Shown here one piece after another: positions 26,518 to 55,870 of a stretch of 64,000 nt of DNA. Numbering within the stretch: the stretch's first letter is position 1; the number at the start of each line of letters is the position of its first letter. The DNA is from an uncultured Planctomycetaceae bacterium (lineage in GTDB: Bacteria; Planctomycetota; Planctomycetia; Planctomycetales; Planctomycetaceae), in the NCBI GenBank assembly GCA_903858815.1, contig CAIOKE010000077.1, positions 1-64,000 on the forward strand, written 5' to 3'. The position numbers were made by a program, and so were the translations under genes. The notes under the pieces are model-generated. The model was not told the origin of the DNA and did not search any database. It was given only the letters and a program-made list of their open reading frames with translations.

Positions 26518-27007
26518 GTCGACTGTATCGACCGTCCCGGACGGCACATACAGACCGGCTCCGGCACCCGGCAGGATCCCAAACACCGCCAAATAACACC
26601 AAAACAACCCATTCCACCAGGAATCACCAGACCACCTTTTCTGATCACCCTGATCTCCGGTCCCCAGCAGGAGTTTGCCCGGCCACGAAATACTCAGACC
26701 CCAGTTGCAACCCACGCTGAAGGCCTTGAGCCTCAATCAGGAAATCCTGCCTCACCGTCTGATCCGCGACACCCCCTGCCCCGGAAAACGGCGAATTCTG
26801 CCTCTCAGCAACCACCGCACGATCAGCAGCCGGCAGTTTTTGCCGGTTGACAGCCACAACCGAATGCCTCGCCAATTGAATTCCGCCGAATCGCCGTTGC
26901 TGAATTTCCGGAATCCACAATATCTTTCGATCTTCTCCTCAAGTTCTGTTGCTGTGACTCACTCTTCTCTCCTGTCTCTCATCTCCTGTTACTCAGGACC
27001 TACAGTT
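26518..27007. other. Divergent intergenic region with pyrimidine-rich leader
   Basis: A 490-bp gap between the winged-helix gene and the TPR lipoprotein. No gene is supported. The 80 bp before 27008 are strikingly C/T-rich on the + strand (TCTTCTCCTC, CTCTTCTCTCCTGTCTCTCATC) and end in ACTCAGGACC, which provides the AGGA ribosome-binding site. A TTGACA at 26848-26853 has no good -10 partner. Confidence 0.4.
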
Positions 27008-28129
27008 ATGGTCAGACTACCGCTGCCGCAGATGATTCGCGGACTTTCGCTGCTGACAGTCTCAGCACTGCTCGCCGGCTGTTCTTCGATGAGTGGCAAC
27101 ATGGCCAATTCCAGTGGCATGAGCTATTTTGAACGCGGCAACTATCTGGCAGCCGGGGAACAGTTTCAGCGCGCACTTGCCAGTGATCCGGACAACCCGG
27201 ATTACATGGCCAACCTCGCTCGCGTGCGAATGACTGCCGGGGATGCCATGGGAGCCGAACAGCTCTATCGCCAGGCTCTGACCGTCGCGCCCTCACATCA
27301 GCCCGCCTACCACGGCCTTGCCGAACTGATGGTGACCCAGAATCGTGGCCAGGAAGCCACCGCGATGCTGAACACCTGGTCCAGTTCGCAGCCCTCGAAC
27401 CCTGAACCTCAGATTGAACTGGCATGGCTCCATCGCGAACTTGGTAACCACCAGGAAAGCGGTCAGGCCCTCCAGAAGGCACTGCAGATCAACCCGGGGA
27501 ATTCCACTGCACTCGCACACCTCGGTCAGCACTATCAGGACATCGGGCAACCCGAAATGGCAGTCACGATGTATCAGCAGTCGCTGCGATCTGACTGGAA
27601 TCAGCCCGATATTCATGCACGACTCGCGAATGCTTCGCAGACTGCTGGAGCCTCAACAGCAATGGGAGCCACCGCCATGGGGCGTGGTATGCACCCAGGC
27701 GAAATGCCCAGACAGCAGATGGCCTTCGGCATGCCCAATGGACAGGTTCCCTCTGGTGCACCAGGTGGACAGCCCGGTATGCGAACAGCAATGAGTCCAT
27801 TTCCGCAGCATGCCGGTGGCTGGAATGTCGCCGCTGGTCCAGGCACTGGCACCCCGGGTTCCGGATGGCAGCCCACTCCAACTCCGTGGGTCGTCACATC
27901 CGGACCAGCTCCTGCCGGTGCGTCGGCCATGATTCCTCAGGCCGGACAGATCATCATGGAAGGCGACGCCGGCATGAGCATGCCGGGCACTGCCCCCATC
28001 CCGATGGTTCCCGGAACAACACAGCCAGCCCCCGCCACTGCTTCACCAACGCCGGACCCGGCCTTCAGCGCAGTCACCCCCGGGGCCACAACAACCGCTT
28101 CCACGGTATCATTGGTCGAACCCTTCTGA
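27008..28129 (+). CDS. TPR lipoprotein, TadD-like
   Basis: A 373-residue lipoprotein: signal peptide with lipobox L-L-A-G-C25, then at least four TPR-like units (YFERGNYLAAGEQFQRALASDPDNPDY; AEQLYRQALTVAPSHQPAYHGLAELM; ELGNHQESGQALQKALQINPGNSTALAHLGQHY; EMAVTMYQQSLRSDWNQPDIHARLA). The C-terminal ~170 residues are low-complexity Gly/Pro/Met/Ala/Thr. TPR lipoproteins of this kind (TadD) accompany Tad loci, and this gene is divergent from tadABC, which supports but does not prove that role. An intrinsic terminator follows 24 bp after the stop. Confidence 0.8.
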   Translation: MVRLPLPQMIRGLSLLTVSALLAGCSSMSGNMANSSGMSYFERGNYLAAGEQFQRALASDPDNPDYMANLARVRMTAGDAMGAEQLYRQALTVAPSHQPAYHGLAELMVTQNRGQEATAMLNTWSSSQPSNPEPQIELAWLHRELGNHQESGQALQKALQINPGNSTALAHLGQHYQDIGQPEMAVTMYQQSLRSDWNQPDIHARLANASQTAGASTAMGATAMGRGMHPGEMPRQQMAFGMPNGQVPSGAPGGQPGMRTAMSPFPQHAGGWNVAAGPGTGTPGSGWQPTPTPWVVTSGPAPAGASAMIPQAGQIIMEGDAGMSMPGTAPIPMVPGTTQPAPATASPTPDPAFSAVTPGATTTASTVSLVEPF

Positions 28130-53751: not shown

Positions 53752-53850
<99 letters not shown>

Positions 53851-53856
<6 letters not shown>

Positions 53857-53885
53857 CCGACTTCCGGGGGGAAAGCCAGCCTTTT
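53851..53885 (-). terminator. Terminator after AAA+ regulator gene
   Basis: A long stem-loop with about 15 base pairs (AAAAGGCCGACTTCC against GGAAAGCCAGCCTTTT, two G-T pairs and one bulge) with flanking A and T tracts, 40 bp past the regulator stop. The symmetry of A- and T-tracts means it could work in both directions. Its left arm merges with the last unit of the 7-bp array. Confidence 0.75.
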
Positions 53886-53924
53886 CAGGAAGGAGAGATT
53901 TCTTAGCAGTCGCTGTCGCTCAGA

Positions 53925-55424
53925 TCAGGCCGCCTTGCGTTCGCCGCCGAATGCCACAATCTGCGGACGACGAACATTCGAACCCGGACCGCCTCGCGGA
54001 GGATAACCGTACTCCCTCAGCTTGCCCGACAGGGTTCGCAGTCCGATCTGCAGAATCTGAGCCGTCTTTTCACGATTGCCGTTGCAGCGAGCAAAGGTAG
54101 ATTCAATCAGCTTGCGTTCCATTTCCGCCAGTGTCATACCCACACACTCAGCACCGTCTTCAATCGCATCATGCGACAGCCACGGACGCAGGTCTTCCGG
54201 GTTGATGCACTCGTCTGCATCTACCGTGCAGCAGCGTTCAATCACGTTCTGCAGCTCACGAACATTGCCCGGCCACGCATGTGACTCCAGCAACTGCAGT
54301 GACTCTGAACTGATCTGCCGCGGTGGACGCCCTTCCTTCAGCGAAATCTGACTGATGAAATGCTCCACCAGCAGCGGAATATCGTTCGTCCGCACTCGCA
54401 ACGGCGGCGACTGCAGAGTAATTCCGCTCAGATGCTGCAGCAGATCATCCCGGAATCGCGACTCCATCGCCAGACGATTCAGATCACCATGCGTGGCAGC
54501 GATAAAGCGAATGTTTGGACCATCCTGAGTTCCGTTCAGGACGGCCGCCGCTCGCTGCTCCAGCAGCTGGGCCAGACGCTTCTGAAACGGCAATGCCACC
54601 GTGTCCACATTGTCCAGCAGAATCGAGCCACCTTCACCCATCTTCAGATAACCCGGAAATCCATCCGGAGCCGCATCGCCGAACAGCTGATGCTCCAGAG
54701 TTTCCACGGAATGCAGACTGCAGTCGATTCGCAGGAACGGACGCCCGGCTCGACGACTGCAGCGATGCAGCCCCTCAGCCACCAGCGTCGTACCACTGCC
54801 CGGCTCGCCTCGCACCAGAACAGTGCGATCATCATCCGCGGCAATCCGAATCGATTCCCGCAGAGACTGCATTGCCGGAGTGCTGCCAACCAGATCCATC
54901 AGGTTCCGATTCAGCAGCTGACGTCGCAGCTTCTCATTCTCTCGCACCAGCTCACCGCGACGCAGAGCATTCAGCAGAGCTGCTCCGAATCGTGAGGCGG
55001 AATACGGTCGCTCAATCACATCACAGTCGAATGATGGCACCGTCTCGCGACCCCAGCGGGAATCTTCGCTGACGATGCACAGCACCTGAGCCGCTCGTGA
55101 ATGCGCCCGAATCGCCGCATTCACTTCCTGAATCCGTGACACCGAATCGGCATCATCAATGATACAGCAGCAGAACTCCTGCCGACTCAGATGAAACAGC
55201 ATGGCGTCCGGACTGTCCGTCTCGCACACCTGCATACCACGCTTGCGAACATCGTCAGCCAGCAGCTGACGTGCTCCCGGGCGTGGAGAAAATACCAGAA
55301 CTGTCCGATTGACTGGTTCCGGTTCCGGAGCCGTGTTGCGGGGTTCCGGGGGGGCAGTCGGCGCGGAATGCGGGAACCGCAGAATGTGCGGCTCATGATG
55401 AGCGCCGTGCGGGAACTCGTTCAT
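53925..55424 (-). CDS. Degenerate sigma-54-activator-like AAA+ regulator with receiver-like and Fis-type HTH domains
   Basis: A 499-residue protein. Residues ~40-155 look like a receiver domain, 178-400 like the bEBP AAA+ domain and 428-473 a Fis-type HTH (TLAEMERKLIESTFARCNGNREKTAQILQIG). The WPGNVRELQNVIERCC segment (384-399) and the SRFRDDL arginine-finger region (322-328) are well kept. However, Walker A is GEPGSGTT with T212 in place of lysine, Walker B is GGSILLDN with N272 in place of glutamate, the sensor asparagine is H312, and the GAFTGA loop is absent (DAAPDGFPGY). I infer a regulator that no longer hydrolyses ATP or contacts sigma-54. The ATG at 55424 follows GAGGAC. Confidence 0.85.
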   Translation of the reverse strand: MNEFPHGAHHEPHILRFPHSAPTAPPEPRNTAPEPEPVNRTVLVFSPRPGARQLLADDVRKRGMQVCETDSPDAMLFHLSRQEFCCCIIDDADSVSRIQEVNAAIRAHSRAAQVLCIVSEDSRWGRETVPSFDCDVIERPYSASRFGAALLNALRRGELVRENEKLRRQLLNRNLMDLVGSTPAMQSLRESIRIAADDDRTVLVRGEPGSGTTLVAEGLHRCSRRAGRPFLRIDCSLHSVETLEHQLFGDAAPDGFPGYLKMGEGGSILLDNVDTVALPFQKRLAQLLEQRAAAVLNGTQDGPNIRFIAATHGDLNRLAMESRFRDDLLQHLSGITLQSPPLRVRTNDIPLLVEHFISQISLKEGRPPRQISSESLQLLESHAWPGNVRELQNVIERCCTVDADECINPEDLRPWLSHDAIEDGAECVGMTLAEMERKLIESTFARCNGNREKTAQILQIGLRTLSGKLREYGYPPRGGPGSNVRRPQIVAFGGERKAA

Positions 55425-55870
55425 GATGTCCTCGATCTGAGAGCTGAGGGAGAGACGGAGGGAGAGAGAGACGAGAATTTCCTGAGGCAACAGTTCCATG
55501 GAACAGGCCGAGAAAGCCTGCAACAAAGAATGAACAATGTCCCAGGAAGGTTCCGGAGCAAGTCCGGAAAGGAAGAGAGGAGAACTGGAAAGGATTTCTG
55601 GACCAGTGAGTCAGGTCCGGTTTGAGAGGCCGATTGATAGCGGTGATCGGTCGCGAGTGTCAACACGTCTTCACAGCGAATCCAGGCAAAACCTTGGTCG
55701 ATTTTTAAGAATTCTTCGTTTGCACCAAAACCCAGCCACCAAAAGCCACCACAGACGGCATTTTCTGCCGAAGCCCGACTTACCAACGGCAAAAAAAAGA
55801 AGCCGGATCCTCTGATCCGGCTTCCACTCGGCCAACATCCGGCCGCTCACGGCCATTTTCTACTGGACTT
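55425..55870. other. Leader region of the regulator and terminator of the next gene
   Basis: About 450 bp with no gene. The part nearest the regulator is strongly purine-rich on the + strand (GAGAGCTGAGGGAGAGACGG), giving a pyrimidine-rich leader on the regulator's mRNA. The right part carries the terminator at 55791-55824. Confidence 0.4.
55791..55824 (-). terminator. Intrinsic terminator after Ala-rich protein gene
   Basis: On the minus strand, a perfect 11-bp stem (GAAGCCGGATC / GATCCGGCTTC) with a 4-nt loop is followed by eight T. It lies 46 bp past the stop of the 55871-57622 gene. Confidence 0.95.

Follow-up and report, generated by a model that had tools for sequence, protein, structure and literature searches.

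A degenerate homolog of flagellar sigma-54 activators in Planctomycetaceae, probably a DNA-binding regulator independent of sigma-54 and of ATP hydrolysis

Background

Regulators of the FlrC/FleR/FlgR/FlbD kind, a group of bacterial enhancer-binding proteins (bEBPs), switch on rod and hook genes through sigma-54 (PMC7064773). TyrR, DhaR and HupR are documented cases in which the GAFTGA motif was lost and regulation moved to sigma-70; the same has been proposed for VpsR (PMC3162934), for which activation is non-classical (PMC10274813). The move to sigma-70 is also supported for Caulobacter NtrC, which lacks GAFTGA. Walker residues are needed by this protein, as K178A and D235A mutants fail, and its regulon extends to envelope polysaccharides (PMC10274813).

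The regulator described here is encoded in the window, the whole stretch of 64,000 nucleotides analysed, from an uncultured Planctomycetaceae bacterium. It shares the three-domain layout of the FlrC/FleR/FlgR/FlbD proteins, which match functionally its presumed ancestor, and its sister clade is encoded next to flgB-flgC-fliE-fliF-fliG, downstream of a kinase gene and together with a sigma-54 promoter. Unlike them, the window protein has a degenerate receiver and lacks kinase, GAFTGA and ATPase residues, and its gene lies outside a flagellar operon, in a genome lacking flagellar genes. The AAA+ fold and the Fis-type helix-turn-helix (HTH) are shared with canonical sigma-54 bEBPs, whereas GAFTGA is missing, Walker A Lys and Walker B Glu are replaced, and -24/-12 boxes are scarce downstream of its predicted sites. 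As in TyrR, DhaR, HupR, VpsR and Caulobacter NtrC, the sigma-54 contact loop has been lost and the DNA-binding domain kept. Caulobacter NtrC, however, has intact Walker A and B motifs and a kinase; the window protein has neither the Walker A Lys, nor the Walker B Glu, nor a kinase. VpsR and FleQ (7v2b, 8p53) are among the Foldseek matches listed, the overall fold match being moderate (TMq ~0.4-0.5), but their DNA site is different. Literature searches, with subscription journals outside their coverage, found no report of this degenerate regulator family.

Results

The gene and its protein

The coding sequence is intact and followed by a strong terminator, as the first-pass annotation had stated. 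Its features are:

53925 to 55424, minus strand: coding sequence of the degenerate enhancer-binding-protein homolog, 499 aa, intact (ORF analysis)
55005 to 55310, minus strand: pseudo-receiver domain, aa 39-140 (alignment with canonical relatives; receiver-like fold in the AlphaFold2 model)
54171 to 54896, minus strand: AAA+ domain and lid, pseudo-ATPase, aa 177-418 (Pfam, alignment, AlphaFold2, Foldseek)
54786 to 54809, minus strand: degenerate Walker A, GEPGSGTT, aa 206-213, Lys replaced by T212 (alignment)
54651 to 54680, minus strand: site of the missing L1/GAFTGA sigma-54 contact loop, about aa 249-258 (alignment)
54606 to 54623, minus strand: degenerate Walker B, ILLDNV, aa 268-273, Glu replaced by N272, Asp kept as D271 (alignment)
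53976 to 54137, minus strand: Fis-type DNA-binding domain with GYPPRGGPGSN extension, aa 430-483 (dN ~0 in the genus-level clade)
53928 to 53939, minus strand: C-terminal end [RK]-x-A-A, conserved in orthologs
53848 to 53888, minus strand: intrinsic terminator, 18-bp stem

The context of the ATG start codon, ATCATGAACGAGT, is kept in nearly all genus-level orthologs. The bEBP architecture recognised in the first-pass annotation is confirmed by Pfam domains (Sigma54_activat, E 6e-28; AAA+ lid, E 1e-23; Fis HTH, E 6e-10) and by an AlphaFold2 model (mean pLDDT 80, pTM 0.55) in which receiver, AAA+ and HTH folds are all retained. The AAA+ part of the model matches domains of FleQ, ZraR and NtrC1 with target TM-scores of ~0.8. 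The receiver-like domain had been noticed earlier, its degeneracy had not. The Asp aligned with the phosphoacceptor is kept, the acidic pair DD is changed to SP, Thr to Ser and Lys to Arg; receivers of canonical relatives carry DD, D, T and K.

The claim that all catalytic landmarks are lost holds in part. Alignment bears out the replacement of the Walker A Lys and of the Walker B Glu and the deletion of GAFTGA. In contrast, the Walker B Asp, the arginine-finger segment RFRDDL and the sensor II segment WPGNVREL are still present, and H312, which had been listed as a lost sensor residue, is normal, since the active bEBP ZraR (1ojl) reads 'iaath' at this position and His is likewise found there in L010, a canonical paralog encoded by the window's genome.

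The [RK]-x-A-A terminus is kept family-wide despite a preceding linker of variable length. It resembles C-terminal degrons of ClpXP, and regulated proteolysis of the regulator is possible. Elsewhere in the window, between 59294 and 59678, ORFs overlapping on both strands have the appearance of an interspersed repeat, not of genes.

Orthologs, phylogeny and selection

The GAFTGA motif is altered or absent in all 39 Planctomycetaceae orthologs sampled, and in none of them was a complete Walker A and Walker B pair found. Identity to the window protein is 77-97% in the genus-level clade and nearest genera, and 34-43% in the rest of the family. Canonical motifs are present in 25/25 sister sequences, which represent six further families of the class. 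In a tree built without the motif columns, and with additional bEBPs as outgroup, all 39 degenerate sequences fall into a single clade (SH-aLRT 100), to which the 25 canonical sequences are sister (support 98); some long branches were flagged by the program. Residue losses vary by sublineage. L042-L044 keep the Walker A Lys and carry Glu-Asp in place of Asp-Glu, and in Schlesneria orthologs the Walker A Lys is replaced by Ile or Val. Loss of the L1 motif is common to all lineages, which suggests that the sigma-54 contact was lost first, and the ATPase residues later.

The gene is under strong purifying selection, dN/dS in the genus-level clade being ~0.02-0.05 in the AAA+ domain, with dN near zero in the DNA-binding domain, the most conserved part of the protein. 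An ortholog was found in 16 of the 18 genomes of the genus, both misses being incomplete assemblies. Gene order around the window gene is kept in the genus-level clade only, and is uninformative for function.

Flagellar origin and loss of the kinase

The flagellar link emerged from wider neighbourhoods of the orthologs. Canonical relatives reside in a locus (gene names from sequence reading and tblastn) in which a histidine kinase gene and the regulator gene are followed by flgB-flgC-fliE-fliF-fliG-fliH-fliI, an enhancer palindrome and a sigma-54 promoter preceding flgB. The kinase lies directly upstream in 23/24 canonical loci versus 0/21 degenerate loci. Some degenerate members remain in the flgB operon, with a small FlgN-like gene in place of the kinase, and in the window's genus the regulator gene is outside the flagellar operon. 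The tree, together with the operon of the sister and of some degenerate members, indicates that the degenerate regulator shares descent with the flgB-operon regulator.

FlhA, FliG and FliF were not found in the window's genome, which is 99.4% complete. In seven other gene-carrying genomes of the genus neither FlhA nor FliF was found, and two of the seven gave a marginal FliG_C match. The PF08345 model misses divergent FliF, as that of G018 (another genus), and flagellum calls therefore rest on FlhA and FliG too. Two kinds of FliG per genome are present in G029 and G031, and G031 has also a second flagellar cluster, which suggests that one flagellar gene set was replaced by another within Planctomycetaceae.

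A palindrome shared with flagellar enhancers

Genus-level orthologs share upstream of the gene the palindrome CGGCA-N5-TGCCG, ~100 bp above a sigma-70-like promoter. Two predicted operators lie in the window:

55756 to 55770, minus strand: predicted operator palindrome CGGCAGAAAATGCCG, upstream of the regulator gene, conserved across genus-level orthologs
26831 to 26845, minus strand: second predicted operator, CGGCAAAAACTGCCG (pattern search)

The former makes autoregulation plausible. The pattern CGGCANNANNTGCCG occurs at 69 sites in the window's genome (G000), versus 10 for a control obtained by reversing the pattern, likewise palindromic and of the same composition; genus-wide, 890 sites compare with 123 for the matched control. 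The consensus, ATCGGCAGAATCTGCCGAT, was built solely from sites of the window's genome, and flanks add information. Though 81% of the sequence is coding, 48 of the 69 sites are intergenic and ~30% fall inside predicted genes, by gene calls from a simple codon model. Random palindrome enrichment is rejected by the same-composition control, and terminator hairpins were rejected as source of the palindrome, which is accompanied by neither a T-run nor a fixed flank. Paired operators were noticed at L227, L237 and L215, spaced ~30, 29 and 108 bp, the 108-bp pair being equally spaced in G007.

The matrix was frozen on the 69 sites before flagellar loci of canonical relatives were scanned. In four of the four loci L100-L103 the top match in 19.5 kb falls in the gap between the regulator gene and flgB; the same gap holds the top match in 18/20 loci fetched later, hence in 22/24, in a set spanning six families in which loci of one family are not independent, so that a binomial figure overstates the certainty. 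A -24/-12 box mostly comes after the match. In the degenerate-protein family the regulator-flgB gaps contain no strong site and no -24/-12 box. Since the best match in canonical loci precedes flgB, the operator of the new regulon corresponds to the enhancer of the old flagellar circuit.

Outside the genus-level clade enrichment is uneven (sites/control 36/30 in G018, 28/28 in G032). Family members with and without an ortholog differ modestly (one-sided p 0.03), and the near-complete family genomes lacking an ortholog (G020, G024, G030) show no enrichment. G033 is enriched (64/13) with no ortholog found; its assembly is 88% complete, in 1200 contigs, and the ortholog may be missing from it.

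Promoters and predicted targets

The predicted promoter of the regulator gene is sigma-70-like, both boxes being conserved in genus-level orthologs:

55658 to 55663, minus strand: -35 box, TTGACA
55634 to 55639, minus strand: -10 box, TATCAA, 18-bp spacer

The operator centre is at about -136 from the predicted start. At better-scoring predicted sigma-70 promoters elsewhere the operator is 52-236 bp upstream, not over the -35 and -10 boxes; regulon-wide, sigma-70 promoter scores near operators lie little above shuffles (7.6 vs 7.3). Sigma-54-like boxes (score at least 9/11) occur in 3/56 operator-gene gaps of the window's genome, against 1% in shuffles, and in most canonical loci. The use of sigma-70 is thus suggested mainly by the regulator's own conserved promoter and by the scarcity of sigma-54 boxes.

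The second operator of the window precedes a predicted target:

27032 to 28126, plus strand: TPR lipoprotein-like gene (start from a crude gene caller)

In G011 and G018 the orthologs of this gene are likewise preceded by the operator, at a similar distance. Further predicted targets encode secretins, porins (Porin_O_P, BBP7), OmpH, an OEP protein, an L,D-transpeptidase and an O-antigen ligase, as well as a sugar epimerase, a sulfatase, CsrA, ParB and MraW. By a crude rule, starts resembling signal peptides are found in 41% of targets vs 23% of background genes (p 0.004). The regulon is partially conserved, as eight target pairs other than the regulator itself are found again in G011, of the same genus, and two clear pairs in G018, the TPR gene being among them; additional low-identity pairs of G011, possibly paralogs, were left uncounted or given little weight.

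The csrA-like gene (L251, on C283 of the window's genome) has its operator at 82892-82906, ~124 bp upstream, in a genome lacking flagellar genes. CsrA elsewhere often accompanies flagellar genes. Operators were also seen upstream of each of two similar histidinol-phosphate-aminotransferase-like genes of the same genome (L178, L245).

Discussion

The protein is probably a DNA-binding regulator independent of sigma-54 and of ATP hydrolysis, once in charge of flagellar genes and since taken into service for a broader regulon that in part concerns the envelope. The ancestor would have been a FlrC/FleR/FlbD-like flagellar sigma-54 activator, phosphorylated by the kinase encoded by the adjacent gene. 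It would have recognised CGGCA-N5-TGCCG enhancers ahead of flgB and opened sigma-54 promoters at the expense of ATP. Within Planctomycetaceae it would have lost its kinase, the chemistry of its receiver, the GAFTGA loop and its ATPase residues, and kept its DNA-binding domain and operator. Most likely the present protein attaches to this palindrome in oligomeric form, joined by its pseudo-AAA+ and pseudo-receiver domains. With neither ATP hydrolysis nor sigma-54, it would tune promoters of the sigma-70 type, that of its own gene and those of about 50 others, many of which are exported or envelope-related. Judging from the residues and genes present, the classical route, by phosphorylation, hexamer formation and an ATP-driven stroke on sigma-54, is closed on four counts.

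How such a protein would act on its promoters admits more than one answer. It may be a dedicated repressor seated on old enhancer palindromes, blocking housekeeping promoters or excluding other sigma-54 activators. Power stroke and sigma-54 contact are gone, which removes the classical way of activating, tandem operators exist, and Caulobacter NtrC, devoid of GAFTGA, both represses and activates (PMC10274813). Yet the operator centre lies ~136 bp upstream of the start at the best-supported promoter, and 52-236 bp at others, and interference with sigma-54 activators is unlikely because sigma-54-like boxes are found in only 3 of the 56 gaps. Pure repression is the less likely possibility. Upstream operators argue for activation or dual action rather than simple blocking, and an activator or dual regulator is slightly favoured; this is a lean, since promoter scores barely beat shuffles. 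The suggestion of a repressor or scaffold in the first-pass annotation is not supported as worded, since it goes beyond what sequence can tell. The regulator's own operator is not over its promoter. Cooperation with sigma-54 might alternatively persist, should the protein assemble, for instance, into mixed hexamers with a canonical bEBP. The window's genome encodes RpoN and has about 15 more bEBP-like genes, and Caulobacter NtrC mutants lacking GAFTGA raised sigma-54-dependent transcripts (PMC12421884). GAFTGA, the Lys of Walker A and the Glu of Walker B are all absent, most operators are unaccompanied by sigma-54 boxes, and the DNA-binding specificity helix is not found in any paralog HTH listed, which makes this very unlikely.

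Another Fis-type regulator could read the same palindrome, the degenerate protein being merely a vestige or a partner. Other Fis-type regulators occur in the window's genome, and enrichment of sites with no ortholog detected was seen in G033 and in two incomplete genomes, G013 and G016. Against ownership by a different regulator, the site is found before flgB beside canonical orthologs in six families, and upstream of the degenerate gene across the genus; the DNA-binding domain is the most conserved part of the protein, its recognition helix is unshared by any paralog HTH listed for the window's genome, and near-complete genomes devoid of the ortholog (G020, G024, G030) are unenriched. We hold it improbable. 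That the gene is a dying, pseudogene-like relic of a lost flagellum could be argued from the variation of catalytic residues among lineages, and from the absence of flagellar genes in the window's genome. Neutral decay is rejected by dN/dS and hardly deserves credit, as the ORF is intact, promoter and operator are conserved, and the gene is maintained in 16 of 18 genomes of the genus, including seven others which lack flagellar genes. Nor is the decay recent, a reading that orthologs with canonical motifs would have implied: the same loss of GAFTGA extends across the family, and canonical orthologs occur only in other families, so that the decay is old and fixed. The first-pass annotation had seen neither the descent from a flagellar regulator nor the loss of the kinase, and had missed operator and regulon; its idea that the protein was selected for a new role, one needing neither ATP hydrolysis nor sigma-54, finds support in the loss of GAFTGA in all family orthologs sampled and in the strong conservation of the pseudo-ATPase within the genus-level clade.

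What is new about this probable regulator is that kinase, receiver chemistry, ATPase residues and sigma-54 contact have all gone, that the reuse of an enhancer motif can be traced, and that the protein persisted after loss of the flagellum. We incline, with some reserve, to a one-time conversion at the base of Planctomycetaceae to a nucleotide-independent global regulator, by which the ancestral enhancer would have become a genome-wide operator of envelope genes. Such a regulator would have outlived the flagellum, keeping its DNA code intact and dropping every part that uses energy.

Single cases of activators that gave up sigma-54 are known (TyrR, HupR, VpsR, Caulobacter NtrC), but the path that they followed is rarely traceable. 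Here the kinase, the operon, the enhancer and the sigma-54 promoter of the ancestor are still visible in sister families, and the converted form occurs across a whole family. A predicted operator and regulon become available for a phylum with no comparable regulon map in the literature searched. How an ATP-driven activator turns into an ordinary DNA-binding regulator, and in which order its parts are lost, may thus be addressed in Planctomycetaceae as a testable question.
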